From positions 4,171,920 through 4,235,919 of the forward strand of contig OX030961.1 in NCBI GenBank assembly GCA_943735955.1: a stretch of DNA of 64,000 bases, in the 5' to 3' direction. This stretch comes from Piscicola geometra (lineage: Eukaryota; Annelida; Clitellata; Hirudinida; Piscicolidae). Both the position numbers and the translations under genes were made by a program. The notes beneath the pieces were generated by a model. That model saw only the letters and a program-made list of their open reading frames with translations. It made no database searches and was not told where the DNA came from. Positions 416 through 52,026 of this stretch are shown here, in pieces. Each line of letters opens with the position of its first letter. The stretch's first letter is position 1.

Positions 416-11566
<11,151 letters not shown>

Positions 11567-14640: not shown

Positions 14641-15275
14641 TCATCTTTCAATGACTTCAATCATTTTCACGATTGAGTGGTAGACAACTAGATCCACAAC
14701 CTGGAAAAATGGTTTATATTGTATTAAATTAAACATTTTAAAAATCATTGATTAAATAATATTTAAATATTCATAATAAAAATTTGTGAGTATTTCAATA
14801 TGCTGATAAATTTATCTTAAATAATTAGATTTTTTATCCTTTTTGAAGTATCATAAAGATAAACGGCTCATTTACAAATGATAAGTATATTAAAACATAT
14901 AAGAAATACCAAAATAAATCATGAAAGATTAACTAGAAAAAGTTCTTGATTAGCTACCTCAAAAACAGTGAGAAGACTGCAGCCCATCAACAGTCCTAAG
15001 TAACTGCCCAAGTCGCCTGCAAGCAAGAAGTGTAGCAAATAGATTAGAGAAGAATGGAAAAATGTGTATAAGAATTTTTAATTGTAAAAAAATTTACTTT
15101 GACTTTTTATTCACGAAAACTAAATATATAAACTGTATATCAATAATATACTAATTTTAATGTAGTAGTAGTGAGAGAAGTACTGAAGAAGTTGATCCAG
15201 GTGTAGGCCTCAGAAGTGGCGATATTTTCGTATTTCATTTCGCCAAAGTAAATGTTCATCTTCAAGAAGTTGGAC
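14641..15275 (-). other. Channel pre-TM2 strand, TM2 and C-terminus
   Basis: Exons 15275-15184, 15016-14958, 14700-14641. They read NFLKMNIYFGEMKYENIATS, then DLGSYLGLLMGCSLLTVFE, then VVDLVVYHSIVKMIEVIER and stop. The G-C-S in LLMGCSLL occupies the selectivity-filter G-x-S position. The C-terminal tail after TM2 is very short. Confidence 0.93.
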
Positions 15276-18200
15276 CTGTCAGTGGTGGTGGTTTAGAGGA
15301 ATCTGAAAGGCATTAGTCTTTCTTTGTAATGCAATTCATCGATAGATTAGTTCTATTTTGCAACTCTAGGCCAAAACGCTAGTAACCTATTTGATTTTTA
15401 CAAAAATACAGAAACAATAGTTTTCTTATTGGGAATTAAAGAATAGAAAAATTGTTTATTAAAATTTTTTTACAAGAATTATGTCTAAACATCTAAGCTA
15501 TTTGAAATTATTAAAGCTTGCTATGATGAAATTGTTTTGAACGAACATGATGAAGCTTTCGTCGATCTTGGAAGAAGGAAATTTTTCAGAAATTTTGCTT
15601 TTAAGTCGCTTAAACAGCAAAAAAATCTTTAAGTTTTGCTCAACTAGGCGTTCTGTGGTTTCCTGTAAAATTAAGGGTTAGACTAAATTATATTTAAAAT
15701 GTACCAATGGTACATTGCACCATACAATACAAAAAAGCTGAGTATAATAGAGTAAAATAGGATAAAACAACAAAAAACATCTAAATAGATTTGAGCGTTT
15801 TCATTTTACCTTAATGAGATCATCATGGGGCTTTCTGTTCCAGCTAACCCACGCCTGGATCAGCCCTGAGATGATGTCAATGTCCATGCCATTGATTTTC
15901 AGAGTTTTGATTTTCTGTAAAGATGATCATGTAATCATTAAACTATTTTTTCTCCGTTTTTTCAAGAAATGTGGGTTAAAATAAAAAAAATAAAGATGTG
16001 TAAAACTATTTTTAGCAAGTTATATCTATTAACTCGATGAGCATTTCAACTGAGATTTTATATCTTTTTATTGTATCAACAAGATCTATAGATAACGTAG
16101 GCTCGGAACCTCGTCTTTGTTAACTTTTTATGGCTAAATATGTTTGGGCAAACCTTTATTTTTTATAAGTTATGTTGAATTAGTTTAATCTAAAGAATGC
16201 AACGGGTTCATTTTTTATTTGTCCTTCACGGCGTCCATCAGTCTCGGAAGATAATTGGCTTAAACCAATGCTTAAACCTGTTCGGTGCCTATACAAGCCC
16301 ATTCTAGAGTTTCTGTCTGATTCGACTGCTAGCCGCTGCTGGAGTGAAAAAAGTGGGTCTCAAAACAATCACTGTTTTTGTTCTGCTTTTTCCCAATGTT
16401 TTTAGATTTTGTCAAACTGTGATGGAACAACATCTATCTGACTGGAAACTGCTCAGCTTGAGTGGAAGGGGGAGTTGTGAATGAGACATGGCGATCTCTC
16501 CCACCGTCGGAAGCGGCTTCTTGAACCATATAAAAAACATGATTTATAATCGGTAACTACTACTTCTTTTTTTTCTTCTTTTTTCTTTGTGCCGCTGGGT
16601 AACTCAAAAAGTTCTAATTATCTTGTCAAGAGGGGAGAGTCAGTTTAGTTGCTGATCTCTTGACCACGATACAGGTTGAACAAGCTTACATGGGACTAGA
16701 AGCAGTTTCTTTATCTCTATTTAACTAATATTTCTAAAAAGATTTTCAGTTTAAATTTTTAAAAAAAAATGTGACAACCCAAATTTAAACTTTCTTTTGG
16801 GTATTCGTTGTCATTCCTATCATTTTAGAGCTCTACATTAAATGTTAGTGATGATGAAAAAAACGATTTTTAATACTTTTCAAACTTTGAAAAGTAATAA
16901 AAATCGTATTTTAAAAAATACATATATAATAGATTCTATCAAAAACTTTATATTAAAAATTCTTTGGCAACTCACGTCAGAATTTTGAAAGCCTTTAACT
17001 TTTTCCAAAACTCCAAGTTGATTCAGAATTTGGTCCACGAGCTCATCAACCTCTTTGGTTCCTACCGTCTGGTCCAATTCCTGCAAAAAATGGAAAAACT
17101 GCCCGTACTGTGAGGCCACTTGCCGACTGACATTTTCTGTTGCTTCATCCAATGGTTTCAAGAGTTCGGTGATGATTGTGGGCACAATTGAGTCGACACT
17201 CTGAATCATGTCTGTATTCTTCGAATCGGTGAAATTCTCGTAGACTTCTTTGTCACTGATTTTGTTTGTCATAAACAGATTCATTTTTTCCTCCCACCAA
17301 GAAATAAGATTATTCAAGGTAAACAATGATTCTTGTGCGATGTTGCTTTCAGTTAGGTTAGTTTTAAAATCCAAATCTTTTAACCACTTTTCATAATCTC
17401 TCAAAACTAGGAATACCGCATCCAAACAGCCTTTTCTCACGCCATCCATCAACGTTAACACCACTCCATGCTCTTCCAGAACCTCCATTCCTTGCAACCA
17501 CAAACCATCGATTTGCTCCTCATGTGTAAGTTTCTCATTTTTATTGTTTTTGTTTATATTGAAGTTAATTTCTTCTGTATTTATATCATTTTGATAATCG
17601 GTACCATCCACATTATTATTTTGGTTATTAGTTTCATTATTAGTTGTATTACTACCATTTTTCTTTAAAAATATTTGAAACTTATAGTTTGTTTCATTAA
17701 AAAGTTGCGTGAAGAATGATATGGATTGATCAAGTCGGATGTTCAAGTTTGCTTTGAGTTGCGAACAAGTGTTTGCTTGATGGTTCGCGAATTTTTTTTG
17801 ATTTGATGATTCTGATTGTGAAGTTTCGGAAAATCCCTCATTAGCACTATGAGTGAAAAATGGATGAGTGAAATAGTGGTGATTAAAAGAAGAGTAAAGA
17901 TATGATGGATACGCTGAAGATGGATAGTCTTGGAACGACTGATTGATTGATGGATAATTGAGAGATTGATAAGTAGATATTGGTGAAATTTTGGAAGAAT
18001 TTGAGCCGGTTTTTTCTTTTCCGTCAAGTTGATTGAAAAATAATTTGACGCCAGTTAAAGAATTCAAAACGTTTTGAATTGAATGCATGTAGATAGTCCA
18101 GTCATTTTTCAACTTTTCATCTTCGAAAGATCGAGAGACTTTTAAGTTTTTATCCATTTTTGTTACATTTGTAGGATCTTCATCGTTGCCTGCTTTGTTT

Positions 18201-21200
18201 TTATTAATTTCTAAATTTTCATTTTTCAAATCATTGTTCTTTTCGTCTTTATGCAAGAGGTATTCATGGTGAATCACAAAAGAATGTAGTGAGTTTTGAA
18301 ACTTGTTGATGAGATAATCAAACATCAGTGATTTAATCTTAACCTGCTTAAAATGTAGTGTTATAAATTTTTCATAGAACGTGAGACCAGCGCGTTGTAT
18401 GTCGCTTTTCGCAAAAGATGAAATCTCGCTCAGATACGAATTGGACTGAACGGGAGTTGGAGGCTTCAGCACGGTCAAGACGATGATGTCTCGGAGGTGC
18501 TTCAACTGGTTGAGGTAGTCGTAAAATGCAGCAGATAATTCTTTGATGTTTCTGCTGTCGACCCTGCTTCTCATCTCAGACGCTTTAGCGTACCTCTTCT
18601 CTAAACTGGCTGCATTTGGGCCTAAAAGGTTTGATGACGTTGTGTTTCAGTAGTAAAACAAAACACAATTTATAGGATTAAACCAATTGAGTTTAAAAAA
18701 TTTTTTTTTTACAATTCTGTAAGATTGTAACAAAATATATATTTCAAATTCTTGAAACACGAAAAAAAACCTATGATGTCTTCCATTCTGAGGGCCGAGA
18801 TCTTTGACTCAGACGTTTGAGCCGAGTACGAAGTAGACACACAGGCACATGGACATTCATAAGAAAACTCTTTGGCTGTAAGAAGGATGATTGCAGTGTT
18901 GGTCACGTAAGTGATATTGACTACAGTAGAGTTGAGTCATGAAATAAGGTATGTTTTATCATCTTTAGCTGTGCCAATGTTTTTCTGATAATTGCAATAG
19001 GTTTGAATGAGATTGAATTGTCAAGTGAATTCAGAAATCTATAAAAATGTACACAATTTAGAAAAAAGCGGTTAAAATTTTATGATTTTATAAATAGAAT
19101 GATGAAAATCTTTTCGTGACACCCAGAAATGTCTGTTAAAGCTAGCGTTTAAGCAGTGCCATTGTTGTTTGAGAGATTTCAATAGATTTGAATAGAGTTA
19201 AGCTGGTAATAAAACTAATTTTTTTAAAATAATCTTACATAACTTCACGATAAATAGAACCATTATTCATTTCGGCCTGTTATCGCGACTCCAACATAGG
19301 CCGCCTAGCAGCTTCCATCAAGTGGCTTGGTTCTGGCTAAGTTCTTCCAGCTGCTTCCACGTTCTCTTCGTTTCTGTGTCAGCATCCAAGTTTTGGGGCC
19401 AGATGCTTTTGGCGCTTTTGAGAGTACCCGAGGCAAACTACTTTGTCTCACTAGATCTGCCTTCCGAACAGTATATCCTATCCATCTTCAAAGTTCAAGT
19501 TTTTTTATACTTATCAAAAAACTGTGGTATTGTTTTTCTTTATAGGTCTTGTTTTTCTTTATAGATCTTGCATAGCCAGCGGAATTTCTAGAAATTCATA
19601 AAGAAGGTCTTGATGAAGATTTGTATTTTTTTCATGGGGGTCAAAAAAGTTCTCTATGTTTCCGCTCCATAAAAAATATTGTTTTTCCAAGGTAGTATAA
19701 AGCCAAGTTGATGCCAATAACGTTGGATCGTCAAATGTTTCTCAGCTAACGGAGGCTGTACGTAATGGCTGCGTAAAGTGACATTTAAATTGCCTCTGTC
19801 ACTTATAGCATATTTATAACTTGAATTAAATTGTTTTTTAAAGCAAATTCTTGGTAATTAAAACTATTTCCATTGGGTAACTTAACTACGAAGTTTCGCA
19901 ATATCCGTCATGAGTGTCTTTGGTTCGATAAATAGGATGACATAAATCTGTTAAATGTGACATCGAGTAGTTCGGAGTATAAAGAAAACCTCGTATCTGC
20001 GATAAACAACGTCGAATAACATAACATAAATCTGTTCGTATGGCATACAGAGTAGCTTGTGGAACAAAAGAAAGCTCTCTATAGACGGTAAATAACTTGA
20101 CGTGAAATTGTATTGGATGTTTTATGGCAATCAACGATTAACAAAATCTTAGAAAATTTTACAATTATGAGTATGAGCAAAAACATGGGAGTTTGTATTT
20201 TGTCTCACCAGGTTTACTGGAACAACCGAGGTATCTGGAGAGATTGCAGACTGGAGCCGATCCGTCTTAAGGGTGAAATAAATTAAAAAATTAAGTATTC
20301 AATAAAGTTAACTAAGTTGTCAATAAATTATTTTTAATTATTTTTTTGATAAATTTTAATATATTAGTAAATAATAAAATTTAAAAAAAGATTTATTAAT
20401 ACTTTAAATTTAGAATAAAAAAAATAAGTAATCCAATCACCAAAATACATTCCAAATCTCTTTTTGTTTTTAGCTTTTCCAACAATACATAGTTTCTATT
20501 CTGTTGAAAAAACCTTTCGCATGCACCCTAAAACACACCTTCGCTGCGGGGCATGTAAGCGTCGACACAGCCACAGTCCGAAACCATTTGAACGGCCTTT
20601 TTCTCCAGTTTGCATCGATCAACGGAGTATACTTGCTGATCTTTCTGCTCCCATGGGTAGGAAAGATTCATCGGCACTTCCGCACAGATTCCGAAAGGAG
20701 GAGGGAGCTTTTGTTGCTGTAGGAGGCATTATAATGGGATGTTGTTTAGTGGGTTAATATTATTGGAAAAGATTTTGTTTTTGAATGTCCGAGCTTGTGT
20801 TAATTTAATTTTGAAATGTTTTGAAGCAATATAACTTTTAATTAAATACTTCAAACAATCCAAACAAAAAACAACTAAAACTACGCCCTCAAAAGGCAAA
20901 CTACTCCACCGACCATTGAATACGATATTATGCCGAGACTGTGCACACCAGGTCCCGCTGCCAAGCCCCTGGCTAGCATCGAAGGCATTTGCCCCGGTCC
21001 GTGTAAGTAAAACTGGAATGATGTGTGGATGGGTTATGGTTTCACGCTCGGTGAAGCTGGGAATTCTATGTATAAAGCGCGCCAAGTTTTAAGAGTTAGT
21101 TTTAGGTAAAAAAAGATTTCAATATGCATGTTATTGCATGGTATGTAGAATGTGTTTAAGTTTAGTTTTTCAAAATGTAAAATAGAAATATATAAAAACT

Positions 21201-23147
21201 ACGATAGGTTTCTGCTTATGTACCGTGAAACATTATGTATAAGGTGCATGGGTTACTGTCAATAATTTATTTAAGAAATAATTAACGAGGAATCACAATG
21301 GATAGTTAGATAAATTTTTTAGTTGATCCTGAAGATAAAAAAAAGAACAGAAAGTAAATTCAAAGAAGGAACCTTGACTCCGACTCCTGATACGTATCCA
21401 GGCACATGTTCGTACTGTTCCACGTTCAGAATGAGACCCAGTCCGGACTGAGAGCCTGTTTGCGATGTGACTCTGTCGAGAAAGTTTGAGGATGAATTAT
21501 TGTTTTAATTTGGAAAGAATGTGGTTTTTTATTTTATTTTATCAAAAATATATTTTATTTTTTTAAGGGATTCTTAGGGGTGATGGTTTAAAGGGAGTTT
21601 AGAAAGATTAAAAAAGACTTTCGGGCATGATAAACCTGGATGCTTTGAATTTCATTGTCACAAATATATAAAAATCCACTACATAACTACAATAAATTTT
21701 AGTTTCGCCACCTATCGTTCTCAACGTTAAAGGTGTAACACTGAGCCATGTCTGTCATTTGGACTGAAACGTCGCTCTCCTTGCACTCTACTCCTTTGTA
21801 GGTACAGCTGTAGTGGTGGTGGTGGTGGTGGTGGTGGTATTAGTTGTTGCAGCCATTGACACTGATTTCATGTTGTCATTTACAACTACATATTTAAAAG
21901 CGATATTGAAATAAAGAGTTGAAAAAAATAAATAGTAATTAAAAGCAAAAAGTTATAAATTCTGGATCATAACAAAAAGATTCTATTTGACGAAATACTT
22001 TGAGAACAGACTGAACAAAACATCCACAACGACAACACTCACGAGTGGATGAGATCGCTCTTCTGGTGTGAAAGCTTTGAGTTCCAATACTCCATTGAGA
22101 TGTCTGGTAAAAAAAAGTTTTATAATCTTAAATTATTTATATAAATTAATACTTTCATTTTTTAGACTCTGCTGTGGTTTAGATAAATTCTTAAGTGAAA
22201 TAATGATCATTTGGAAATTCAAAAGTTACCTATATTTGAACTGTGAACTGGAAACACTAAGTGTAAGTCATTCTAATACTATTTACCTTTCTTAAAAACA
22301 TCCCCAACAACCTCCCCTCTCACTTTTTATTCCCTCCAACAAGCCGTCTCTGTACGCCAGTCGGTTCAACCGCTTTCCTGCGTACTTCATTCTCATTGGG
22401 AGAAGTTTCGTCTCTGTAAAAGTGGGCAGACTTGTGGGAGTGACTGTAGTTCTCGGTGGAGTGGTTTCAGACTCTGTTGGAAAGTTGGAATGGTTTTGTA
22501 ACATGGAAGGGTGGTGGTGAAAGAAAGTGGAATGGCGGTTTGATGAGGGTAGTTTTAGTGGGAGTTGGAATAGGAGCAGTAGTGCCGTTGAAGGGTAGTT
22601 GGAAAACAGAAATGAGTGGTGTTGGCAGTCGAATGAATAAAACTTTTTCTAAATTTGTTTAAATATTCAGTTACTGATAGTTTATTTTCAATTCATTATT
22701 CCTAAAACGGATTTATTTACATAGAAAACAACCTGGCATTGTCTTCTTCGTGAAACTCGTCTCACAATCCAACACAGACGTCGTCGTTAAGTTGTCTATT
22801 GCCACAAACATTCTACTTTTATCGTTAACGTTGAAGTTGTTTGGTTTCATTTTGCTGTTGTAGAGATTTTTGTTTTTCTTTTGAATTGTGTCGTACACTT
22901 CAGCAACGAAGTAGACATGCCATTGGCCAGACGGAAGACATGCGCTCACCTCTTGCCACTTTCGTTGTGCGTGGAAGTCCACTTTTGAATTTTTGGTGGT
23001 TTTTAAACATATTTTTCACAATAGATGGTTAAGACACAAAATATATACACATAAATACACACACACATACACAAAAACACACACACACACAAAAACACAC
23101 ACACACACAAAAACACACACACACACAAAAACACACACACACACACA

Positions 23148-23233
<86 letters not shown>

Positions 23234-26200
23234 AAAACACACACACACACACACACACACAAAAACACACACACACATACACACACACACACGCACGCAC
23301 GCACTCACCAACAAAAGACTCATAGGTCGTGTGAGACAACTGCTTCAAAGAATTTTCAAGGCGCAACTCCAACAACACGTCCCCATCCACGTAGGCATGG
23401 AAACTAACTCTCATTTTTGATTGGCTGGAAACGAGTGGTGACGTCATTATTCCCAACCAATCAGAGTACTCCTTTGAGCTGACAAATGTCACCACTTTGC
23501 TATGATCTTTGCAGCCATTAGTGACACCAGCATCTCCACAATTAACCAGGTCACTCCAGCTGATCCAAGTCCATGGTAGGCCAAAAAATGAGGTCATCCT
23601 GTAGCCACACACACTCTCCTCTTCAAAGTCACATGTCAGGCTGTTCTTTTTGTCTTTGTGTGGGCGAATTCCAATTTTGATAACGATAAGGAAGATGGTG
23701 ATGATAATAATTTTGATTTTGATGGTGATGATGATATCATAATTATAGAAAAAATAGTGTTATTTTTCATTTAAAAAACTATTTTCGAAATAGTATACCG
23801 TCCATTAGTAGGAATAAGAAAAGTTTTATTCGTAGAAAAATTATTTATCCAAAAAAATATATTCAAGATTTATTTCTTTTTACAACTCACTCGAATCATC
23901 CAGAAATGCCAGGCACTCTTGCTCCAAAGCCTCTATGCTTTTAATTCTAAACACCAAGTCATTTTTCGAGTAATCTTTTCCGTGGAAAATTTCTCCTTCA
24001 TGAATACTAATTTTTGTCTTTTTTTCTTGCAAAACGTATATGCTAAGCCTTGATAAATCCATTGTCGGCTCTAGCTTGTAAAACATCACCCCTTGCCCCT
24101 TTTTCGCTTGGTAAAGACCAATGTGTTCCGTGTGACTGTGGGAAACTTGTACTTGCAGCTGATTTGAGGTGCTTTGGTACACTAGGCGGATGCACTGAGA
24201 CGTGTGGTGGGGCTGGAGGAAAGGTGAGAGAAGTTTTGCCACTGATCCCTGCTTACTGAGATTGAAGTTTGCTTCTAAGTAGTGACCTGCGTTAGTTGAA
24301 AGAGTTTTTTTGATTAATAATTTTGTGATATTGCTGTGTTGTACTATCATTAGAAAAAGTATCATTAGTTAATAGTTAGTTATTAAATTCATAAAAAAAC
24401 AATATAAAAACAAATTCAATAAAATAAAAAAGATCAAAAAGAAAAATCTTTCCAAGACCATTTCAAATGAAATGCAACAAATCTTCTAAAACCAAAGACA
24501 AATAAACTACATTTGCAGCTTTGTTCGTGTTTTCTGATCCAGTAGATTGGACCCGAAGACACATCCGTGTATCCACACATGTCAGCAGTGTCGAACGAGC
24601 AGTTTATGGATGAATGACGAACTGAAGTGGTGGTGATTATAGTCGTTTTAGTTGTTTCAATAGTGATTTTTTTTCTAAAGCTGATTTTGTATTGGCTGTT
24701 TAGGTTGATCAAAAAGTATAACACTTGTAGCTACGTTTTTATAATTTAAAAAAGGATTAATGGTTTTAGAGTAGTGAGCTCAAATGACATACTTGATAAC
24801 GCTAATGTTTATATGCACAATGTATAATATAATTTATACAATATAAAAACTTTAAAATACGTTGATTCATTATCGTAGGTCTGTGGCACTTTTTAGTCCT
24901 AGTATAACTTGTTCAAATAATATAATAGACATTAAATTAAATGCCTCGAAATCTCCGTGAAAAGAAAATTAGTTATCTGTGAGTTGAATTTTTCTAATAA
25001 AACTCTTAAAACACTTACCCATAGAAAAACAGTCCATGTTGTAGAGAGAAATGTTACGCAGGTAAGATGATTCATTGCCTGGAACCACCTCGTATATAAT
25101 TGCAAACTGGCGATACCACGGTGACTCTGTAAAATACAATTGTGGCAATCGAAACTGGTTGATGGCGACGTAATGTGTGTGCCAGGTGTGGTCGATGGGG
25201 CTTGGTGAGGAGAGAAGGGTGACCTGGGAGGAAGGTGGAAAAGTTCAAGAATTGTAGGGTCTATTTTTAAAAAGTTGAAAACTTTATATAGAACAACTTC
25301 TTTAAGATGCTTTTGTCTTATTTCTAGTTTATACTAAGGTTAAAACGGATTTTAAAAAATACAAGTTTTTCATAAAGTTCAAAATTGATTGTTAAGTATT
25401 CAAAAGACTTGGTAAACTAGAAGTCTATCTACTAACTTCTTCATAGTGATCTGTTACATCAAGATACGCTATCCTCAGACTAAACGCCGCAGCACTGTTC
25501 ATCTCAACAGCCAAGCAATATTCGTGGTTATTCCTACCCCCATCATATTCACCATTGGCTTCTTGACCACCACCAGCATAAGCCTCATCATTAGCGTGTT
25601 TCTTATCGTTGTTGCCATTATGGTTTTCATGAAGGGGTTGGTTTTCGAAGAGAGTGAGTGGCATTGAAATGAGTTTAGCACTGTGTTGCGTTTCGGTGTT
25701 GAATGTTGCAATGTTGTAGTCAAAGGAAATGGCATATTCCACGTCTGTAAGGAAATTAAGATTGTTTTCATTGGTTTATAATAATTTGGAAAAGATTAAA
25801 ACAATTTCGAAGGTTACTTTTGGAGCTAGAATCATAGTATGCTAGCTTGAAGCCTCCAGTCCTCAAAGAACTATCACTTGTAAAAACCAGTTTTAGCTTA
25901 TTTCCTTTTGACAGGAAGGAAGGGGGTAAGGTTTCACCACAATATCTTTCGGTCACGCCTGCTACTGCATCGATTACCTTGGAGGTGGTGATGAGAATGG
26001 GATGCTGGTTGTGGACAGGTGATGTGAATGGCATAGTGAATGATTTAGTTGAAAAAGACTTTGCTTTCACGCTGATAAATCTTCTCAACATAAAAAAAAA
26101 GTTGTTTTTAAGAAGAAAAATATCAATAGTTGTGAATTTTTCTCAAGGAGTTTCGAAAAAACTTTCAAAGTTTACTAAATCTTTTTTAAATAACAATTTT

Positions 26201-29200
26201 TAAGATATAATAAAAAGCACCTGTAAACTGACGTATCGGCAGTCTGGGTGCCATTCCAACTTCATAAATAGAAAGTCCAGTCGGATGGTTGAATCTGTGT
26301 GGTTCGCAAGAATGAAAAACGGCGTAATTTGAAGATTAAAATAAATATTTTCTTTTCAGAAATTTCCATAAATGTAGTTTCTTCATAAAATTAAATTATT
26401 CATTTTTTCTATTCTCATGAGATAACGCTTAGTATTTAAATCTCATTGTCTTATTTTATATTATTTTTTGAAATTTAAAAAATGTCTATTTTTTGCATTT
26501 AATATAAATTTATATAAAAAAATAAGCACATCACATACTCCCAGGAATCTGAATGTAAGAAACTTGAGAGCCCGATGGAAAGCTTTCTGATACGATTATT
26601 CCTTTTGTCTTAGTGAAGACCGAACCGAAACCTGTATGAGTGGGCAGTGAGTTGGATGTAAGAGGGTTTGGATGAACAAATAAGAAATTTGATAATATTT
26701 AGATTTAGAAGACGAGTTGGATGAGTGGTTGAATAGGTGGTTGAATAGGTGTTTGGATTGGTGGTTGAATGAGCGGGTGTACAGGTGGTTGGTGTCAATA
26801 AATGATAGACTTTATGCTTTGTAGGCCACGTTGAAAATGATTTTAGAGAAAAAATTATTTTTAAATCATTAAGCACTTTTTTCAAAAACAACAAAAACTA
26901 ATTTAATTAAGTGTACAATATACTGTATATTGTATACACTGGTGAGTATGAAGAGTATATCCTTTGTAGCATTTTTACATAAAACTAACGTTCGGTAGAC
27001 AGATTACACTCTAGATCTCCTTGCACGCACTTCAGTTGCCAAAAGAGAAACGAGGTTGTGAATTGGAAAGCGTAATTGCAAAGGACATGGAGACAGTCTG
27101 TGAAAGTTGTAATAATTGGGATTGACATGGGATTGGAAATGAGTTTTGTGGCTTCAGTGGCGTTGAAAAAGAGATTATCATAATCCACTTTTGTATCAGT
27201 TGTAAGGGTTTCAGAAGTGCTGGTACTTTTTGTTGCAGAGTTTTTAAAAGTGCTAATGTTTGTTGTTTTTGTCGTTGTCGTTGTTTTTGTTGTTGTTTTC
27301 GTTTTGGGAATGCCATTTGAAGTGGATGTATGTGGTTTCACATTTTGGGTTTTTGTTTCATTAGTAGCAGTTGTATTAGTTATAAAGGTTTTGCTACCAG
27401 AGTTAGTGCTATTTCGACCACACTTACTGCTATTGTTAAAAATGCTGCTACTTTCACTTTCACCACCAATAGAATCTGCATCAATGACATCACTTAGGAT
27501 TCTATCCTCATACGTAGTCTCGTATCTTTCACAGCTTTCTCCTAGCTCCACACTGGCGATGCTTATATCCATCATGTAGGCTACTTCAGTTTCAAACATC
27601 AGATGATACTTGCCAACAGGTAGGCATGCCACTCCCACTTGTAGACCATGAGTTCTCAATGGTTTATCCGCGATTCTCTTAATTGGGTATTTTAGATTTG
27701 TCAGTTGGTATAGTCTCAAGTGAACGTCTTTATCAATGGCGTTTTGTAGACGGCAGGGAGCAGAAGAGCAAGAAGAAGAAGAAGTAGAAGAAGATTTTTG
27801 CAAAGGCAAGGGGGAACTTTTGGTTTTTTTAGTGACGAGATAATTGAATCTGAAAGTTGAAACAATTTAAATAATCATTTTCACATAAAAAGGAATTAGA
27901 ATAAATTTAGTTTAAAAGTATCATACTATAAAAAATAAAAAAACACGAAATTATAAAGGCAGTGTAAAGATAAAAAAAGTTTAAAGCCTATATAAATATA
28001 CCTGACGATAGTTCTGTTTTCGAAGTTCCAGAGAGGAGAGATTAGTTGTACCGTGTCTCCAAGACAACCAAGGGAGGAATCCAGATACATGAGAAAGGCT
28101 GCAAAAACAAAAAAAACTAATAAATTTACTTTTAAATTATTATTCAAGTTATTTTCCCATAAATGCTTCTATGCAGTTAAAATAAAATTCTAAGAATAAT
28201 AAAAAACATTATTCTAAAAATTTTAAATTTATTTTATAATTAAACATCGTTTGTCATGAAATCATGACACAGTAACCAACCCCACAACCACCACCACAAC
28301 CACCACCACAACCACCACCACAACCACCACCAAAACTAGGAACATTCTTGAAAGAGCCAATGTCTGAAATAAAACCCAACTCCGATATTTTCCGACGCCT
28401 CCAGGCCAATTCTCCAACAACGGTGCTCTCGTAACCGCAGAGGTAATCGTCGTTGAAGTAACACTGCACATTCTTTTTGGTCACTGTGAATGGATATATT
28501 AATCACGCGGTTGAACCCACATTATGGATGTAACTAATTATTCAACTTTAGTTAAAATAAAGCATTTAAATAAATGCCAAAACATGACAAAATATTTTTT
28601 GCTAACCAGATAATAGTCTATAATTGAATAGATATTAGTAGATAATCTTTTTTCACATTATTACACTAAATTAATTACCAATATCACTAATAAATTCAAT
28701 TTTAGCATCTTTAAACGTTTCTTTTTTCTATAATTTGAGACAAAAAACATAGTATCTTATCGAAAGTATCTTATTTATTGGTGTTGATATAAATATGTTA
28801 TACTATATTGTATATTATATTATGTGTATATTATACCAAACCTCAACCCTTATCTTACAACAATAGGCATCTTCATCAGCACCGTCTTCACAGTCCCTCA
28901 CTCCATTGCATAGTAGGTGGTCAGGCATGCACAACCCCCCATCACACCTTGCGCTCGCCTTGTTATGACATTCTAGTTGGAGAATAATTTTTTTTAAATA
29001 AATAATTATAATTTAAAAGGTTATTTGAAGAATACATTCACTAAAACTGACGAAATATGAAAAAGACAGAATTAGTTAGATGCATTTCTACTACTTAACT
29101 TGCGCATACTACTACTAGATCCCAGCTACTACTAGACCTCACCACAATAAGGGACGTTGCAGTGTTCAGCATACACCAAATTCTTCTCTGCGACGAAGCA

Positions 29201-32200
29201 TGAAGGCTCCATCCAACCTTCGCCTTTCAAGTTTCTGCAGTAGTTTTCTGATACTTCCGTTCGACTGTGAATAGTCAAACCAGTCAATTGTATCAATGTT
29301 GTCGCAAGTGTTAGCTTGATGGAATATAAAAATTTTCATCTTTTCTCACCATCATTTTCAACACCAGCATTGTCATAATCCACACAACCCACACAATTAT
29401 CCCCAAAATCATCATATTCTTTACAATCATCAATATCGTCAAACTCACTTCAGTTTAACAAAAATCACTCAAAGCATCACTTCCAACCTTTCAAACCACC
29501 GGTTCGAAATTCTAAGTTCATCCCACTGAAGACATTCCTTGCCGCTGGATGACACACTCATGAACCCACTGTAGTCCAGACCTCTCCTGGAGCTCTTGCA
29601 TTCTTTTGTTTTTTCTGCATTAGTAAAATATCCGTTTTTGTATACGATTAGTCATATTTATAGATTTTGTGAAAATATTGGTTTAATGTTAATATATTCA
29701 CACAAAAAATTAAAGATTTGTTACAAAATCTGTTAAAATTTTGAAAAATTTCGTGTTGAAATTTGAAATTCATAACAATTCCGGTGTTCGTAATCAACCA
29801 TCTTATCTTTTTTATTCAATTTTTATATTAACTAGAATTACCATTTCAATGTTCTTTCCTGTCTTCAAATAAACATGTAAATATTTTCTTTGTATTAGCC
29901 ACATTATATTATAAGTTACAGTTCAATAGACAAAAGAATGAAGGAAAGTATTGAACTATTAAAGGCGTATGTAGGATTGTAAATCAGTTCGAACACTAGC
30001 TTCAGTTTTCAAGTTTCTTTCATTCACATTCATTTCAGATTAATATTACCTTCTTTATTCAGATATAAATATCATAACAATCTCTACATTCATTTCAACC
30101 AATTATTTGTTCAAACTTACTATGAAATTTAATTTGAATAAAAACTAACCGAACGCAGAGCATTTCTTAATCATGATATCATCGATGGCAATGGCTGAGA
30201 TACTAGAAATCGATCGGGTTCCAAGGATCGCTACTCGGTGAACACCCGCTGGCAGCTTGTACATCATGTGTGACCAGTCCCGGCCGATTAAAGTGAAAGA
30301 CACGAGAGGCTTTTCTTCTAATTCTTCGGTTATTACGACGATCGAAATGGTAGGCAGTTTCATGTCGAGGTTTCCTTTAAATGGGTGTTGTTTTCGTTTA
30401 GTTTTGCTAAAAATAAATTTCTTTGATAACTCACAAAATTAAACTAGGACTTTTTAAATTACATTTTTTAATCTAAATGGTTTCATAACTTGAAATAAAT
30501 TAAACTGAAAGTTTTTAAATAGAATGTCACAACTCACCTTCCGAATAACCTCCGAAAGTTTCCTGCTCATTTTCGCTATTCTGTGAGTCAACATTCCCGT
30601 CCATGGGAATTATCGGTTTCTTGAGAATCCAGTAAGAAAACTTCATGCAAGTGTCAGTAGTGTCCATGTAGGGAAGAAGGATCTTAGCACTAGAACCCGA
30701 CTTGTGACTCGTCTCTTCCATCAATGCTACGTGGCCTGATTCTGTGGAAAAAGTGGAAAATTAATTATTTCTCAAATTCACTTTTTATCATCATCACGAA
30801 AATTATTTAGATCCTACAAACCAAACCACGAATTCACAATGCAATGCCACTTTTACATTAGACATTCATCCCTCCACAATCAACAAACACTCACCAATAT
30901 ACAAAGTCTCGTCTTTTTCGACAAAAGTGTTTCTCGCCTTGGTAACCTTGAAGACATCAGCTGATGAAGCGACCATCTCCAACGGCAAAGTGTCTTCTTC
31001 GAACGTCACAATTAGTTCGCTGTGAGCTGTCAAGCGATGAAGTTCGGATACTTTTAAAAATAGGATCGTATTAAGGATCAATATAAAAATTAATAAAGCG
31101 TTAGTGATACTTGATGAAGTTAGTATGAAGATAAGTTAAAATGTCTAAAAATGCGTATATTTTCGTAGACATTTTTTCGTTAAACAAAAAGCTGATTTTT
31201 TTTCTTTTTTATATTTTTAGTCAATTCAGTTAGCTCTAGACTTCAATTATTAAAGTTTAACATTTACGGCATAAACTTTCGTTTTACGTGTGAGTATCAA
31301 TGGATTTTTTGAATTACAATATATTCTAATTCAATCAATTCTTAGTTATTTGAAAAATTGAATATTGAGATACATTATGTAATTCATTTGGTATGAGTTT
31401 CAATAATTTAACAAAAATAGCCTCATAAACAATGGAATCGTGTTAGACGGGATTCAAGAAAACCATTAAAAAAATTTTAAAGACTCAAATGTTGTCCCCA
31501 CCTCTTAGTGTTTAATAGACTGACAAAAGTATTTTAGAGTTCGAAACTTCTATCTTTCTATAAATAATTCATATTTTTTGAAAATGAAATTAATAAAATC
31601 TTATTCCATACAAATAGCAAGTTTTTACACAAAAAACGTTGATTAGTGCACAAAATATTCTTTTCTAGAAATGTTTTTCAAAGCGCCACAACTTTATTTG
31701 TTTAAAGATAAATATCTTTTTATGTAAGTGTGTTGTTTTTTTCAAATTAAAAATTCATGAAAAATTTCAATGAATTTAAAACCCAAACCAAAGTTATAAG
31801 AAAAGTTATTTTGCTTTTCAAACGGGTTCATGCGCACCCTTTATAAAAAAAAATAACGTTGAAATGATGCGTAGTGGTTACTCGTTGCATGTAAAAATTA
31901 AAATAAAAAGTGACATAAATTCTAAACCGGTAAAAAAAAGTTAAATTGTTTTCAACTTGAGTCACCGTAAGCTGACATTTGAATACGCTAGTATGCATTT
32001 ATGACAAATCGACTGGCATTGTTATTATAGCGTAGTCAAAGAGATCCAAATCCGTTTACACAGTTAGCTATAGATTTCTGGTGAATGAATCAATAGCTTG
32101 ATTATTGTTTGTGAGAACTCAGTCGATTTTCGAATTATAAAAAAATTATAGTAACAAACAGAGTTTGTGGTACAAGTGGAAACGATTAATCGAAAAGTTA

Positions 32201-35200
32201 ACTTCGTTAACCTTTAATAAGTTTTTGTAGATCATTTTTTAACGAATTGTACATTTAAACGTTAAAATTGCAAGAGAAAACGAAGTTAAAATTACTTTAA
32301 TGAAAAACAATTTTTATATTATAGTATGAACTTTTTTTTATTTCGATATAAAAACATTTTTTTGTGAAAAAAATAATTTATAAAACAACTGTTATATCTT
32401 CATAGTAGCTATTATAGAGGTCAAAAGACCTACGGTAGTTAAACTTCCTATACTTTAATTTCTTAAAAACTAACTCACGCAATTTTCTGATCCTCCTATA
32501 GAACTCGACTCTTTCACCAAGATTCTCTCCATTTTCCCCACAACTCTCTGTTGCCATCTCGAGCCATTCTCCTGTGTATGACGTCATCTCACAACTTTTG
32601 TCTTTGCTTCGGTACAAGAAACCTTGGTGATTAGGTTGCGTCTTTGTTGAAAAGAATTAAAAAACATTTTTCTTATTTTCAAAAATTGTAAATAACCTTT
32701 AGATGAAGGTTTTAAAATACAGATTTTATACTAAAAACTTTGAAATCTTTCTATTTTTCATCAATTTTTTATAAAACCTACGCGCCAACAAGACAAACTA
32801 ATTTAAACCCACAAAAACTATCAACTGTTTTATTTCAATCCAATTTCACCACAACTTCCCAGCCCAATCCTTCTCACCACACCCTTCCCAACCGAACCCT
32901 TCTCACCAGAGCAAGAGCTGTTGTGTACGTTGGTGCACACTGCCATGCACACCCTCCTGCTAACTTCCACCATGCTCAAAGAGATTCCCTTCTCTAGGTA
33001 GGGAATACGACATATGCCTGGGTAATACATGTACTCCGGGCAATCTGTTTTGGTAGCAAAAACGTTTTTTCTCGAATGATTATCTCAATTATTTTATGTA
33101 ATAGTATAATATTATTCTTGTTTGTGTTATTATTACTCAAGTTTTTATTTTATTTTTTTATTTTCTATTATTTAATTCAATATTCTATTATTATTTTTTT
33201 TGCCTATATCAATCACAGTCTGACAGTCGCAGGCCATGTTACAATATTCTTTTATGGCCCAGAGACGCCACTCCACACAAAATACTTTTTCACCAATATG
33301 CGCGTCGCTAAGTCCGCATCATACACACTAGGTATATACTAGCTCACGGTTGCTCATCAGGGTTTCGAACAGACAACCTTTGAGTTGCAGGTTCGACATC
33401 TTACCGTTTAAGCCACCCCAAGTCGCCAATTGTTTTTGTTTGTTTATTTTTATAAATAAATATTATTTTGAATATTTGAATATAATTTTTATTTTTCACA
33501 TTCGCAAGCAAAATCCTCGCCATCCTTGTCGTTCACCATGACGTCATACAGGCCGTGCTCTTGAATGGCAGTCAATCTGTCATTTGATTAATTTTAACTT
33601 TTATTTTTAATTGCCAAAATGTTGGATTTAAAAATTAAATATACCAAACAGACCTTGCAAAACTAAACAAAAAATATTTTAAAGAGCAACTATATTTTTC
33701 CCATTTTTATTAAAGTAATTCAAAAAGTATCCTAGTGAATAAAAGTAATTTCTAATAACTTAAATTACTTTTAAATGTTTTTAGTAAGATAAGATTTGAC
33801 CTGTAGAGGTTTTGGTTACAAACGGTGACAGCAGAAAAAGGCAGAGTGTCGTTGTAGATGATGTTGACAGAAATGGTCGTCGGGTAAGAACTAATGACCC
33901 ATAGTTTGGTGTTAATGATGTATATGAAAAGACTTATATTGGTGGAAAGAAGAAGAGCCCAGATTATTCTGTGGTGTTTGTCATAAGATGGGTTTTTTAG
34001 TTGTAACGGTGTGATTTTGTAATTTATTGCCTTGAGAAATGTCTAGATTTCAGTAGTGTTATGAAAAGGTTTTTGATTAATTATAAAATAAACTAGACCA
34101 AATCTCTGAGAAATCATCTTAAAAAACACACTGTTTGACCAACAATCAAAACCAAGAAACATTCACTCAACCGCCTCAACACAAAAAATCAAACGTACAA
34201 CTCCACCAGCCACAAACTTGCGAGCCACAAATCGACTTCTCAGCTCCAAGAACTTCGCCCCATGCCAAGTTGTTCTACTCACAAAGTCCACCCACAGCAT
34301 TCTCCACGACGGCAACTTAGGCGGCTTTTTCTTCTTTTTCGGCTCACTGCCAAACTCGGTTTTGAAATTCATGTCATAGCCGACACTTTCATTGCGTTCT
34401 AAACCGATTGTCTTGATCACGCCTCCATCCTTCTCGCCACCGTCTCCCATTTCCAGACGAACCGTGCTGATGACGACTCTCGAGTTCGGGACTTTTCCAT
34501 TTTTATCCAGTGAATTCTTCCTCAGTTTCACGTTCACATCGTCGTCTTCTTCTTCGGCGTTGTACCTACAGCAAATCAGTATACAGCTGCCCAGCTTTTT
34601 CAACCCTTCGGTGATTCAAAGTGTGTTGTTTCAAAGGCATTCAATCATGCGATACTTTGGGGCATTTATTATACATATGTGTAACTGTGGAGTTTGGATC
34701 GTAGCTGATCATAGTCGGGGATTTGATCTACTGCCTTCACAACAATACTCGAAATAATGAACATGAGCTAATGCGATTGAAGGCTTTCTAGACCACGGAT
34801 TTATGCCTATAATTTCCAAATATTGTTCATGAATGTGTAGAAATATAGTTTTATGGAATAGTTACACTTAGAGCAACAAATTCGATATATTATATTAACA
34901 ACATTTAATTTTTAAATTTTACTCAAGTTACGCTATGAATTACGTTATATTCAAAGTTGAATTTTTTATGTTACTCAACGCTAGAAAATACGATCACAGA
35001 AGCGATTAAGGCTTATGAGAGGTTTATAAAATCAAAAAACCAAACTGGGGAGTTATTATGGCCTATAAGCTACCTGTGTGGACTCATTCACATAATATTT
35101 TAATAATTTAATTAAACCGTTCGTGTGTTTCACGTGTTAATATGAACAAGGCACCTTTGTAGAGAAGCATGAAGAGGTTTCTGAATAGAGATACAATCCA

Positions 35201-35221
35201 GTATGACACAGTCGCAAACAT
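14641..35221 (-). CDS. DEG/ENaC-family channel with inserted PAN, MAM, kringle, LDLa and CUB modules
   Basis: Predicted trimeric, amiloride-sensitive-type cation channel subunit. I find 38 exons whose phases all match and whose lengths sum to 7,974 nt (2,657 codons plus stop); the first exon, 35221-35155, is tentative. Channel landmarks appear in order: the His-Gly gating motif SRTTWHG, TM1 with PFSAVTVCNQNLYR after it, ectodomain motifs (MAQCYTFN, GLGLILNVEQYEHVPG, LPPPFGIC, CGCVDAYMP, YLGCSSKP, CPCACVSTSYS), the pre-TM2 strand FLKMNIYFGEMKYENI and TM2 with LGLLMGCSLLTVFE. Family members are usually 500-700 residues. The extra length is a module train after TM1 (exons 33044-22324) and a long insert before TM2 (18621-15547). 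TM1 and TM2 lie about 19 kb apart, and neither half makes a channel alone. I know of no characterised channel with this layout. Expression is untested. Confidence 0.88.
15547..18621 (-). other. Long insert before TM2 (three exons, about 620 residues)
   Basis: Exon 18621-16976 (1,646 nt) is one uninterrupted frame. It continues from the Cys-rich exon (GPNAASLEKRYAKASEMRSR) and splices on to 15914-15810 (GMDIDIISGLIQAWVSWNRK) and 15662-15547. The flanks look helical; the middle is low-complexity, rich in Ser/Tyr/His/Phe and Asn/Asp. It carries no cysteine-rich module I recognise. In ordinary DEG/ENaC proteins this gap is a few tens of residues. The last donor (at|gttcgt) was chosen for phase. 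Confidence 0.75.
18771..22103 (-). other. Channel ectodomain core exons (finger, beta-ball, Cys-rich)
   Basis: Exons 22103-22043, 21807-21712, 21472-21373, 21012-20914, 20716-20539, 20265-20209, 18875-18771. They read LSHQKSDLIHSCTYKGVEC, DMAQCYTFNVENDR, GLGLILNVEQYEHVPGYVSG, GLAAGPGVHSLGI, QKLPPPFGICAE, DRCKLEKKAVQMVSDCGCVD, VCNLSRYLGCSSKPAKEF and SYECPCACVSTSYSAQTSES. Every block has a counterpart in the DEG/ENaC ectodomain. The small intron-flanked exon EE (57 nt) is typical of this region. Confidence 0.95.
19255..19495 (-). mobile_element. Degenerate LINE-type 3' coding remnant
   Basis: Minus-strand reading gives RTWKQLEELSQNQATWWKLL after KMDRIYCSEGRS-like text. It resembles the W-----A--R--WR end of invertebrate LINE polyproteins. 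It lies in a channel intron. A stop is present, so it is dead. Confidence 0.4.
22324..23653 (-). other. MAM domain 5 exons and Thr/Pro linker
   Basis: Exon 23653-23309 reads LTCDFEEESVCGYRMTSFFG, then PWTWISWSDLVNCG. Exon 22981-22733 reads KWQEVSACLPSGQWHVYFVA and closes RMFVAIDNLTTTSVLDC. Exon 22473-22324 is a Thr/Pro-rich spacer ending KYAGKRLNRLAYRDGLLEG and returns to phase 1, marking the end of the module insertion. Confidence 0.88.
23040..23308. repeat. (AC)n microsatellite filling an intron from its 5' splice site
   Basis: On the transcribed strand the donor GTGAGT at 23308 runs straight into GCGTGCGTGCGTGTGTG and then about 240 nt of GT repeat with TTTT interruptions. The array makes up most of the 327-nt intron between the two MAM 5 exons. 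Confidence 0.95.
23891..24621 (-). other. MAM domain 4 exons
   Basis: Exons 24621-24511 and 24286-23891. They read INCSFDTADMCGYTDVSSG, then GHYLEANFNLSKQGSVAKLL, then SPFLQPHHTSQCIRLVYQ, and end IEALEQECLAFLDDS. The order C-F-----CGY, GHYL-A, A-LLSP and C-RL-YQ is a typical MAM. Confidence 0.88.
25019..25744 (-). other. MAM-type domain 3 exons (long acidic/Gly loop)
   Basis: Exons 25744-25437 and 25223-25019. They read TQHSAKLISMPLTLFE, then a low-complexity Asn/Gly/Asp-rich loop, then HEYCLAVEMNSAAAFSLRIA. The second exon gives WYRQFAIIYEVVP and closes with NISLYNMDC. It lacks an obvious opening C-F-E/D strand, so it may be a partial or diverged MAM. Confidence 0.65.
25818..26631 (-). other. 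CUB domain exons
   Basis: Exons 26631-26539, 26294-26221, 26058-25818. They read TKGIIVSESFPSGSQVSYIQ, then STIRLDFLFMKLEWHPDCRY, then TERYCGETLPPSFLSKGNKL and FTSDSSLRTGGFKLAYYD. G-I-S---P, L-F--LE--C, Y-CG---P, S-GN-L-L-F-SD and GF---Y are the CUB hallmarks. The acceptor at 26058 was chosen because it keeps frame; its tract is weak. Confidence 0.85.
26990..28483 (-). other. MAM domain 2, Ser/Thr-rich linker and half-MAM exons
   Basis: Exons 28483-28331, 28098-28002, 27849-26990. MAM start is VQCYFNDDYLCGYESTVVGE, then FLMYLDSSLGCLGDTVQLIS. The large exon closes it with VACLPVGKYHLMFETEVAYM and SIASVELGESC. About 90 residues of Thr/Ser/Lys (stretches of TKTTTTTK type) follow, likely O-glycosylated. 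Then NATEATKLISNPMSIPIITT and TDCLHVLCNYAFQF resemble an isolated middle piece of a MAM domain. Confidence 0.8.
28262..28330. repeat. CCACCA/ACAACC repeat at a splice donor
   Basis: Directly after the donor of channel exon 28483-28331 the transcribed strand is GTGGTGGTTGTGGTGGTGG repeated. Read through, it would encode a Gly-rich stretch. Confidence 0.8.
28859..28972 (-). other. LDL-receptor class A domain exon
   Basis: A single phase 1-1 exon encodes one complete LDLa repeat: CHNKASARCDGGLCMPDHLL, then CNGVRDCEDGADEDAYC. Six cysteines and the calcium-cage acidic cluster (DCEDGADED) are intact. Confidence 0.97.
29143..29614 (-). other. Kringle domain exons
   Basis: Exons 29614-29500 and 29264-29143 join in phase 2. 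They read ECKSSRRGLDYSGFMSVSSS, then GKECLQWDEL, then ENYCRNLKGEGWMEPSCF and EHCNVPYCG. The order DY-G, C-W, NYCRN, W-x3-C and the closing Cys is the kringle fold. No protease domain is nearby, so it is a binding module here. Confidence 0.93.
30150..31050 (-). other. MAM domain 1 exons
   Basis: Exons 31050-30895, 30741-30538, 30374-30150, all phase 1 at both ends. Signatures: TLYIGESGHVALMEETS, then DTCMKFSYWILKK, then WSHMMYKLPAGVHRVAILG and AIAIDDIMIKKC. These match the MAM core (GH-al, Cys before an aromatic strand, and the closing A-DDI-C). MAM domains are extracellular adhesion folds. Confidence 0.88.
31051..32478. other. Large channel intron, no gene seen
   Basis: AT-rich intron between the PAN-like exon and the first MAM exon. 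I see no coding frame with family similarity and no obvious repeat in it. Confidence 0.5.
32479..33044 (-). other. PAN/apple-like domain exons
   Basis: Exons 33044-32907 and 32622-32479, each bounded by phase 1. They read CPEYMYYPGICRIP, then SRRVCMAVCTNVHNSSCSG, then FLYRSKDKSCEMTSYTGEW. The spacing C-x3-C-x7-C, aromatic stretch, then C followed by a polar residue and Ser is the PAN/apple pattern. It probably mediates protein or glycan binding outside the cell. Confidence 0.7.
33220..33425 (-). repeat. tRNA-derived SINE
   Basis: Minus-strand reading shows a tRNA-like head: GGGTGGCTTAAACGGTAAGA resembles an A box, and about 40 nt on lies GGTTGTCTGTTCGAAACC, a B box. A non-tRNA body follows towards lower coordinates. 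It lies in the intron between channel exons 33500 and 33044. It could equally be called a tRNA pseudogene head. Confidence 0.6.
33500..33968 (-). other. Channel TM1 and first ectodomain exons
   Basis: Exon 33968-33801 encodes IIWALLLSTNISLFIYIINT, which is TM1, then SYPTTISVNIIYN and FSAVTVCNQNLYR. This matches the family pattern of TM1 followed by Tyr-x-x-Pro-like spacing and F-AVT-CN-N. Exon 33576-33500 continues LTAIQEHGLYDVMVNDKDGE and ends in phase 1, where the module insertion begins. Confidence 0.93.
34218..35221 (-). other. Channel cytoplasmic N-terminus with His-Gly motif
   Basis: Exon 34605-34218 encodes an acidic, Lys-rich tail ending LWVDFVSRTTWHGAKFLELR. The HG pair is the DEG/ENaC gating motif. 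Its donor splits a Lys codon that rejoins at TM1. The exon may start with GLKKLGSCILICCRYN, a Cys-rich stretch that could be acylated. A possible first exon (35221-35155, ATG, hydrophobic, phase-matched) lies upstream, but the acceptor at 34605 has a poor pyrimidine tract. The true start is therefore uncertain. Confidence 0.7.
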
Positions 35222-36349: not shown

Positions 36350-37305
36350 ATGAAAAATAATATTATGTATTCATTTTAATTTATTATTTATTCATTTTAA
36401 TGTATTATTTATTCGTTTTAATTTATTATTTATTCATTTTAATTTATTATTTATTCATTTTAATTTATTATTTATTCATTTTAATTTATTATTTATTCAT
36501 TTTAATTTATTATTTATTCATTTTAATTTATTATTTATTCATTTTAATGTATTATTTATTCATTTTATTTTATTATTTATTCATTTTAATTTATTATTTA
36601 TTCATCTTAATTTATTATTTATTCATTTTAATTTATTATTTATTCATTTTAATTTATTATTTATTCATTTTTATTTATTATTTATTCATTTTTATTTATT
36701 ATTTATTCATTTTAATGTATTATTTATTCATTTTATTTTATTATTTATTCATTTTAATTTATTATTTATTCATCTTAATTTATTATTTATTCATTTTAAT
36801 TTATTATTTATTCATTTTAATTTATTATTTATTCATTTTTATTTATTATTCATTCATTTTTATTTATTATTTATTCATTTTATTTTATTATTTATTCATT
36901 TTAATTTATTATTTATTCATCTTAATTTATTATTTATTCATTTTAATTTATTATTTATTCATTTTAATTTATTATTTATTCATTTTAATTTATTATTTAT
37001 TCATTTTTATTTATTATTCATTCATTTTTATTTATTATTTATTCATTTTTATTTATTATTTATTCATTTTTATTTATTCTTTATTCATTTTTATTGATTA
37101 TTTATTCATTTTTATTTATTATTTATTCATTTTTATTTATTATTTATTCATTTTAATTCATTATTTATTCTTTTTAATTTATTATTTATTCTTTTTAATT
37201 TATTATTTATTCTTTTTAATTTATTATTTATTCTTTTTAATTTATTATTTATTCTTTTTAATTTATTATTTATTCATTTTAATTTATTATTTATATGATT
37301 CTAAA
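36350..37305. repeat. 21-bp minisatellite, about 45 units, with higher-order structure
   Basis: The unit is approximately TTTAATTTATTATTTATTCAT. Because 21 is divisible by three and the unit lacks an in-frame stop, it gives a 302-codon artefactual frame (YYLFILI repeated). Variant units recur in the same order at intervals of several units, so blocks have been duplicated. Confidence 0.95.
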
Positions 37306-51090: not shown

Positions 51091-52026
51091 TGATGAGTTT
51101 TTAAAACCACCTTGCATATTCATGAACCAAAGCAGGGCGAACGTGAAGCCGACGGGTTTCTGCAGCGAATCGTCGAAGACTGCAGCGAGCGCCACTGCGA
51201 CAGGAACGTCGACCACCTCGATGAATTCTCCCTCCTCCTCCTTGCCACCGCCCTTGCTGACCCGCATCTCGTCGCTCACCCTGCAGTAGAACGTGTAGCC
51301 GAGTGTGCCGCTGTGTTCGCTATTGTTCCTGTGGTGTGGTGGTTGATGTCGGTGTTGTGGTTGATGTCGGTGTTGTGGTTGATGTCGGTGTTGTGGTTGA
51401 TGTCGGTGTGGTGGTTAATGTCGGTGTTGTGGTTGGTGTCGGTGTTGTGGTTGGTGTCGGTGTGGTGGTTGGTGTTTTTTTGGTGGTGTAGATGTAGTGT
51501 ATTTGTTGTTGCTAATGGTGATGTTGTGGTTTATATATTGTTGTTGGTAGTGGTTATTGTTTCTGTTGAGTAGTCGCGATGATGGGGATTAAGGCAAAAA
51601 AACTGTTGTTAATGGCTTTTTATTCACGTGTGACATGAGCTGGAACATTCAATCAGCTAGCACACACAGATGTAACAATTCAGCGTAAAAGACACTGGAT
51701 GCATTTTTCTATTTAACGATATAAAATGGTATTTTGGAATTTAATTTGAGAAGTATCATCAAAAAAGAATAAACAAAGACGACGACAAATACGAGGCATA
51801 TAAGAGCACACCTAGTAGCGGTTATAAAGTGCAGGTCAGTCTCTTGGATACTGTATCCAATCTCTTCGTACACCTCTGCCACCGCCGTTTGTTCTGGACT
51901 CTGGCCTTCCAATATGCCTGCACACAGCTCTACAGTAAGACCCCTGTGTGGTTTTGTAGTGTGGAGAACTCTTCTGTATGCTTGTGAGAAGACTTTGATG
52001 GCGATTTAGTAATGATATCAAGGAAA

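Follow-up and report, generated by a model that had tools for sequence, protein, structure and literature searches.

Does a leech ion channel carry a chain of adhesion and recognition modules within its own extracellular domain, or have separate genes been read as one? This question is raised by a 64,000-nucleotide stretch of the Piscicola geometra genome (assembly GCA_943735955.1, contig OX030961.1, positions 4,171,920 to 4,235,919 of the forward strand; hereafter the window), whose minus strand holds a gene of the DEG/ENaC channel family, here called the giant channel gene. The architecture of extracellular tethers was described in 2021 as one that 'remains largely unknown' (PMC7958617). The leech neurons for touch, pressure and nociception are identified cells, and the DEG/ENaC family is expanded in these animals, with 65 gene models in Helobdella robusta (PMC7992859). 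An earlier reading of the window, made from its letters alone (the sequence-only reading), had proposed that the channel and the modules are one protein, and we followed this proposal up computationally.

Gene model of the giant channel

The gene was rebuilt exon by exon on the minus strand (34450..14641 of the window). The resulting model has 37 exons and 7,290 nt including the stop codon, and encodes 2,429 residues. The DEG/ENaC parts (SRTTWHG, transmembrane segment 1 (TM1), the ectodomain and transmembrane segment 2 (TM2) with GLLMGCSLLT), with the module exons between them, fell into one frame-consistent series, as had been claimed, whereas the earlier tally of 38 exons and 7,974 nt was not reproduced. 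The difference may come from the choice of start and from exon 14. The model starts at the first in-frame ATG (34450), upstream of which the frame of exon 1 continues, and an additional 5' exon is possible; the frame of exon 14 stays open for about 140 Thr/Ser-rich residues beyond the model end, and this extension may be a linker that is part of the exon.

Since the choice of exons was guided by homology and phase, the junction and splice figures are a consistency check and not a blind test: all 36 introns of the model are GT-AG and all 36 keep the phase, in agreement with the junction phases proposed earlier, and in leave-one-out scoring 19 of the 36 donors and 22 of the 36 acceptors ranked in the top 5% of decoys (1,045 GT and 969 AG), with the median donor in the top 4.7% and the median acceptor in the top 3.9%. 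All 37 modelled segments are open, against 11.7 of 37 expected by chance.

The module chain comprises exons 4-23 (3,843 nt, divisible by three; 1,281 residues). An assembly error joining two loci, which the sequence-only reading had named as a danger, was also looked at. The window contains no N, and in a search that covered the first half of the chain, 10 of 10 matches in the 171-Mb assembly were the channel locus itself, so that this half is single-copy. A duplicated or gapped locus was set aside for these reasons. The sole TM1 matches within the window form one group, corresponding to exons 1-2, and therefore the chain appears to lie inside one channel gene. We infer that one transcript carries all of the exons.

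Channel parts and modules

The features of a DEG/ENaC channel were found on both sides of the chain: the HG motif, two transmembrane segments, a cysteine-rich ectodomain and the Pfam family ASC, which matched in an N-terminal part (residues 56-144, 1.4e-12, 47.9 bits, cut-off 23.6) and a C-terminal part (6.7e-35 in one piece; 2.2e-48 in another, with 165.8 bits against the cut-off of 23.6). TM2 contains the selectivity motif GxS (GLLMGCSLLTVFE, GLLMGCSLLT, exon 36). When the model was scanned in overlapping pieces, the order of Pfam matches was ASC, PAN, MAM, kringle, LDLa, MAM, CUB, MAM, MAM, ASC.

The PAN, kringle, LDLa and CUB modules named in the sequence-only reading were all recovered by Pfam, LDLa below its cut-off. 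Its five MAM-type units fared less uniformly when tested one by one against the Pfam cut-off of 26.4 bits: two passed, two stayed below, and the unit of exons 18-19 gave no MAM match, for which reason a fifth true MAM was rejected. MAM 2, one of the two units below the cut-off, was the best MAM stretch of its overlapping piece. No EGF family match was present in the model at E up to 1. All nine units of the chain, and the linker exon 24, start and end in phase 1. Modules of phase 1-1 are the classic mark of exon shuffling. N-glycosylation motifs number 25 in residues 101-2360, with 10 of these in an insert at the knuckle described below. The elements of the gene are listed in Table 1.

Table 1. 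Elements of the giant channel gene in order of transcription, with positions in the window and the evidence for each; 1-1 denotes a unit starting and ending in phase 1.
Exons	Element	Position (strand)	Evidence
1-2	Cytoplasmic N-terminus, HG motif (SRTTWHG), TM1, first palm strand, CNQN motif	33801..34450 (-)	Pfam ASC
3	Finger helix alpha1 (RLTAIQEHGLYDV...), ends in phase 1	33500..33576 (-)	Collinear with ASIC
4-5	PAN/apple (1-1)	32479..33044 (-)	PAN_1 7.3e-6, above cut-off, isolated module
6-8	MAM 1 (1-1)	30150..31050 (-)	8.7e-7, 29.4 bits, above cut-off
9-10	Kringle (1-1)	29143..29614 (-)	Kringle 2.8e-10, above cut-off
11	LDLa (1-1), acidic CNGVRDCEDGADE motif	28859..28972 (-)	Ldl_recept_a 1.7e-4, 22.2 bits, below cut-off 24.1
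12-14	MAM 2 (1-1)	27428..28483 (-)	5.3e-4 alone, 20.3 bits, below cut-off
15-17	CUB (1-1)	25818..26631 (-)	3.1e-12 and 3.8e-13 in two overlapping pieces
18-19	Unit resembling a degenerate MAM (1-1)	25019..25744 (-)	By eye only
20-21	MAM 3 (1-1)	23891..24621 (-)	1e-7, 32.3 bits, above cut-off
22-23	MAM 4 (1-1)	22733..23653 (-)	1.1e-5, 25.8 bits, below cut-off
24	Thr/Pro linker, then finger alpha2	22324..22473 (-)	Latter half matches the part of ASIC that precedes alpha3
25-31	Finger alpha3, beta-ball, palm, thumb	18771..22103 (-)	ASC matches; homologous in relative P0001
32-34	Knuckle alpha6 with insert of ~616 residues	15547..18621 (-)	Same-site inserts in relatives
35-37	Last palm strand, TM2 with GCS, short C-terminus, stop	14641..15275 (-)	Collinear with ASIC TM2; close match in P0001

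Position of the two inserts

Without its two inserts the channel shrinks to a core of 511 residues. In a sequence comparison that covered 28 matched PDB sequences, this core aligned end to end with ASIC2 (3e-38) and ASIC1 (about 6e-38), and more weakly with ENaC (7e-25) and FaNaC (1.1e-20). The alignment with ASIC placed the chain between finger helices alpha1 and alpha2, the names and borders of the ASIC finger helices (alpha1, alpha2, alpha3) being those we take to be current. The sequence-only reading had put the chain between TM1 and the finger region; it instead lies inside the finger. A second insert, of about 616 residues as cut and absent from that reading, opens at knuckle helix alpha6. 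This insert was helical in a low-confidence single-sequence model of exon 32.

In ENaC, the GRIP domain is located between alpha1 and alpha2, in stretches unique to ENaC, and finger and knuckle together make a collar atop the channel (PMC6197857). In annelid FaNaC1 the pocket for the peptide FMRFamide is formed by alpha1-alpha3 and the neighbouring subunit's alpha6; this corner is described as important in gating family-wide, and proposed matrix-tether sites are listed there (PMC11026163). The two inserts thus flank this gating corner.

Relatives and paralogues

Of 5,073 candidates from a search of 5.8 billion proteins, seemingly poor in animal sequences, a single one, P0001, was related to the channel core (719 residues; 67% identical across 18% of the query; 1.5e-56). 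In P0001 the core and TM2 are retained, as is a long insert at the knuckle, which matched that of the giant channel at 3.7e-10 in a pairwise comparison. MAFFT alignments of exon pieces were too gappy for use.

In the leech's own genome (171 Mb, 66 contigs) there were 32 ASC matches, which we grouped by eye into at least 13 loci, in a search that did not recover the C-terminal exons of the giant channel gene itself. Genome counts made exon by exon were similarly weak: the MAM search gave two matches and recovered one of the four MAM units, and the kringle search gave two matches and missed the gene's own two-exon kringle.

The paralogue L037 (contig C5; 2850-7183) has a normal finger and a 518-residue open reading frame at the knuckle. 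The match between its knuckle insert and that of the giant channel gene was marginal (phmmer 0.036, BLAST 0.2), and the homology therefore rests on site and length. The L037 insert matched DALR_1 above the cut-off (1.7e-5), which is likely helix-composition noise; no DALR_1 match was seen in the scanned inserts of P0001, the paralogue L043 and the giant channel gene. In L043/L049 (contig C16), long open reading frames were read by eye between the CxxxC motif and the strand before TM2. Since these paralogues have knuckle inserts, with a normal finger in L037, the enlargement of the knuckle seems to predate the chain.

The paralogue L040 lies on the same contig as the giant channel gene (C7, about 7.544-7.549 Mb; L040:4639-9749). 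Its TM1 (ASC 1.2e-14) is followed by an RAKR site and a C-type lectin, after which come a long stretch rich in Thr and then finger alpha3. The lectin was found above the cut-off in two joined exons (Lectin_C 9.8e-8), and in the model its insert is of phase 1-1; neither the second lectin exon nor that of the stalk matched when scanned alone. In L040 one intron would have GC-AG borders; the exons for palm and TM2 were identified by eye. Recognition modules are thus present in the finger at 2 of 13 DEG/ENaC loci, and in these gene models the finger loop resembles a socket for such modules.

A further DEG/ENaC paralogue on contig C10 (L041:5577-7180, minus strand) has, by eye, an RFKR site and a Thr-rich open reading frame in the finger region.

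Neighbouring sequences

Just upstream of the giant channel gene, an AT-rich unit of 21 bp is repeated in tandem 44.5 times (window 36361-37294). Exons with C2 (6.4e-8) and C1 (7e-4, below cut-off) domains at 3008-3376 and 6138-6467 on the minus strand likely belong to a protein kinase C gene. The same strand has an exon like the GPR158/179 extracellular domain at 43090-43926 (1e-4, below cut-off), followed by transmembrane-like segments read by eye, and a NUDIX domain exon at 51712-52005 (1.6e-5). A reverse transcriptase open reading frame on the plus strand (40213-41085, 2e-18) is a transposon remnant, and retrotransposon-like frames were seen by eye at about 59.5-63.8 kb.

Elsewhere in the assembly, contig C66 is the mitochondrion (15,135 bp, 22% GC). 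Its protein genes, named by eye, lie on one strand, and the order, which used 20 of 27 tRNA calls (seven out of place or on the other strand were dropped) and left ATP8, tRNA-Arg and the rRNAs outside the reading, is COX1-N-COX2-D-Y-G-COX3-Q-ND6-CYTB-W-ATP6-H-ND5-F-E-P-T-ND4L-ND4-C-M-V-L-A-S-L-ND1-I-K-ND3-ND2. It fits what we take to be the annelid/clitellate order.

Proposed mechanism and alternatives

In the model, the channel parts, the modules and their order, the 1-1 phases and the two insertion sites can be read directly. The interpretation that we favour, tentatively and with slightly less than even confidence, is that the gene encodes a DEG/ENaC subunit with 1,281 residues of PAN, MAM, kringle, LDLa and CUB modules in its finger, and that these modules act as an extracellular arm of the channel's own, by which pull or binding would open the pore. 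The product is probably a cis-tethered, force- or ligand-gated cation channel. All exons would be joined in one transcript, and three subunits would assemble as in ASIC. The chain would project outwards at the corner between alpha1-alpha3 in the finger of one subunit and alpha6 in the knuckle of its neighbour, and the binding partner of its modules would be matrix, an adjacent cell or a protein ligand. With the arm anchored outside, tension or binding would move finger and thumb and open the Na+/cation pore, a movement that may be likened to that caused by peptide binding in FaNaC and, as is thought, by protease release in ENaC. The proposed coupling of gating to the modules gains some support from the protease, peptide and suggested tether sites that have been placed at this corner (PMC6197857, PMC11026163) and from the lectin in the finger of L040. 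As to the origin of the chain, exon shuffling is the most likely route: phase 1-1 modules would have entered the finger of a channel gene in whose lineage the knuckle was already enlarged. A knuckle glycan and a palm glycan site are important for the shear response of ENaC (PMC7958617).

The chain might instead be a ligand-recognition head, to which a soluble or cell-bound protein binds and so gates or sensitises the channel, without any mechanical role. MAM, CUB, PAN and lectin modules are presumably recognition domains, and L040 has a lectin in its finger. The FMRFamide pocket of annelid FaNaC1 is at the same corner (PMC11026163). Nothing in the sequence tells head and arm apart; there is, however, no candidate ligand, and the length of the chain and the number of its modules fit an arm at least equally well, so that we regard a pure recognition head as unlikely, though a serious contender. 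Quite unlikely, in our view, is a role confined to positioning, in which the chain would hold or cluster the channel at junctions, cuticle or matrix without taking part in gating. Adhesion modules often serve placement. Matrix proteins are needed for MEC-4 localisation (PMC10148893), but here the insertion is in a gating-relevant finger loop and not at a terminus, and the opposite knuckle is also enlarged.

Two further explanations question the gene itself. A second gene on the same strand, lying within an intron of a channel gene of normal size, would fit with the possible in-phase splicing of exon 3 to exon 24 or 25 and with the weak donor of junction 3-4. We think it highly unlikely: in a search confined to the start of such a gene, between 33500 and 30895, no ATG with a signal-peptide-like stretch was found, against 76 on the whole minus strand and about three expected by length, and in L040, also a model, the lectin is spliced into the finger in the same phase. 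Hardly probable at all, in our judgement, is that the locus is a fusion, decayed or wrongly assembled, whose parts are not made as a single protein. Two MAM units and the LDLa below cut-off, one unit lacking Pfam support and several weak splice sites would suit such a fusion, whereas the open frames of all 37 modelled exons, the absence of N, the single-copy first half of the chain, the pore motifs and the core conserved in P0001 speak against it.

Several observations weigh against a built-in arm, beginning with the splice sites. The four weakest donors are those of junctions 3-4, 17-18, 20-21 and 35-36, and the donor at the fusion junction 3-4, GTGAAA, has a rank of 0.54. The phase of exon 3 also fits that of exons 24 and 25, and it is therefore possible that the module chain is a skipped cassette and that a chain-free isoform exists. 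P0001 begins downstream of the chain and says nothing about a chain in its gene. Searches of the animal-poor protein database, where absence means little, gave no giant homologue (0 of 1,257 candidates) and no TM1-PAN-MAM-kringle protein (0 of 5,885 candidates). The chain was also not met in 14 stretches over 12 other DEG/ENaC loci (tblastn with the whole model, E up to 0.05), of which five were read partly, with open reading frames from 20-60 residues, and seven only for frames of at least 120 residues, so that modules could escape. The L037 intron at the matching place after alpha1 reads by eye as phase 0 and not 1, which argues against a simple drop of the chain into an old phase-1 intron. 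The model contains no furin motif R-X-K/R-R, its nearest sites being two R-X-X-R and one RRRK. By eye, the kringle is without what we take to be the lysine-site acids and the CUB without the presumed calcium-site Asp, and canonical ligands for these two modules are therefore doubtful. Single-sequence structure predictions were unusable (mean pLDDT 37.9 for exon 32 and 32.6 for P0001).

With somewhat more reserve than for the arm itself, we propose as a possibility that this lineage turned the DEG/ENaC finger loop into a socket for shuffled modules. It would thereby have produced two receptor-channels: in the first, a giant knuckle accompanies a PAN-MAM-kringle-LDLa-MAM-CUB-MAM arm, and in the second a C-type lectin sits on a mucin-like stalk. 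In both, the tether or receptor that other DEG/ENaC channels borrow would belong to the channel's own chain and would gate it directly. If this is true, a channel's own tether could be tested directly by cutting out one in-frame cassette, and a finger loop that accepts about 1,300 added residues would bear on the engineering of gated channels. It would also bear on the origin of the peptide-, protease- and force-gated branches of the family from one corner of the protein.

Comparison with known systems

With ASIC the giant channel shares a collinear core from the HG motif to TM2, and among the 28 matched PDB sequences its best matches are ASICs; its finger is longer by 1,281 residues and its knuckle by about 616. 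An ASIC from the annelid Owenia fusiformis has been reported (PMC9949801); the available parts of that report and of PMC9822975 mention no such modules. ENaC offers the likeness of a domain added between finger alpha1 and alpha2 (PMC6197857), but GRIP, which is a small beta unit, carries protease sites, whereas the giant channel has nine modules and no R-X-K/R-R, and protease control of the furin-type GRIP kind is thus unsupported.

To our knowledge, the FaNaC and WaNaC channels of annelids and molluscs are without such modules. Their gating ligand binds at the corner of finger alpha1-alpha3 and knuckle alpha6 (PMC11026163).

DEG/ENaC channels with added modules are already known from C. elegans, where EGAS-1 to EGAS-4 are named for an extracellular EGF module added to ASC (PMC10424705). 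The giant channel differs from these in having PAN, MAM, kringle, LDLa and CUB modules and no EGF match. Searches of the open-access literature, which were not aimed at PAN specifically, turned up no DEG/ENaC channel described as having MAM, kringle, CUB, PAN or lectin modules.

The logic of a tethered channel is shared with MEC-4/MEC-10, where the channel works with matrix components; the family review sets out a tethering model with separate matrix proteins, which are required for MEC-4 localisation (PMC10148893). In that system the matrix partners MEC-1, MEC-5 and MEC-9 are proteins of their own, whereas the modules of the giant channel would be part of its own chain.

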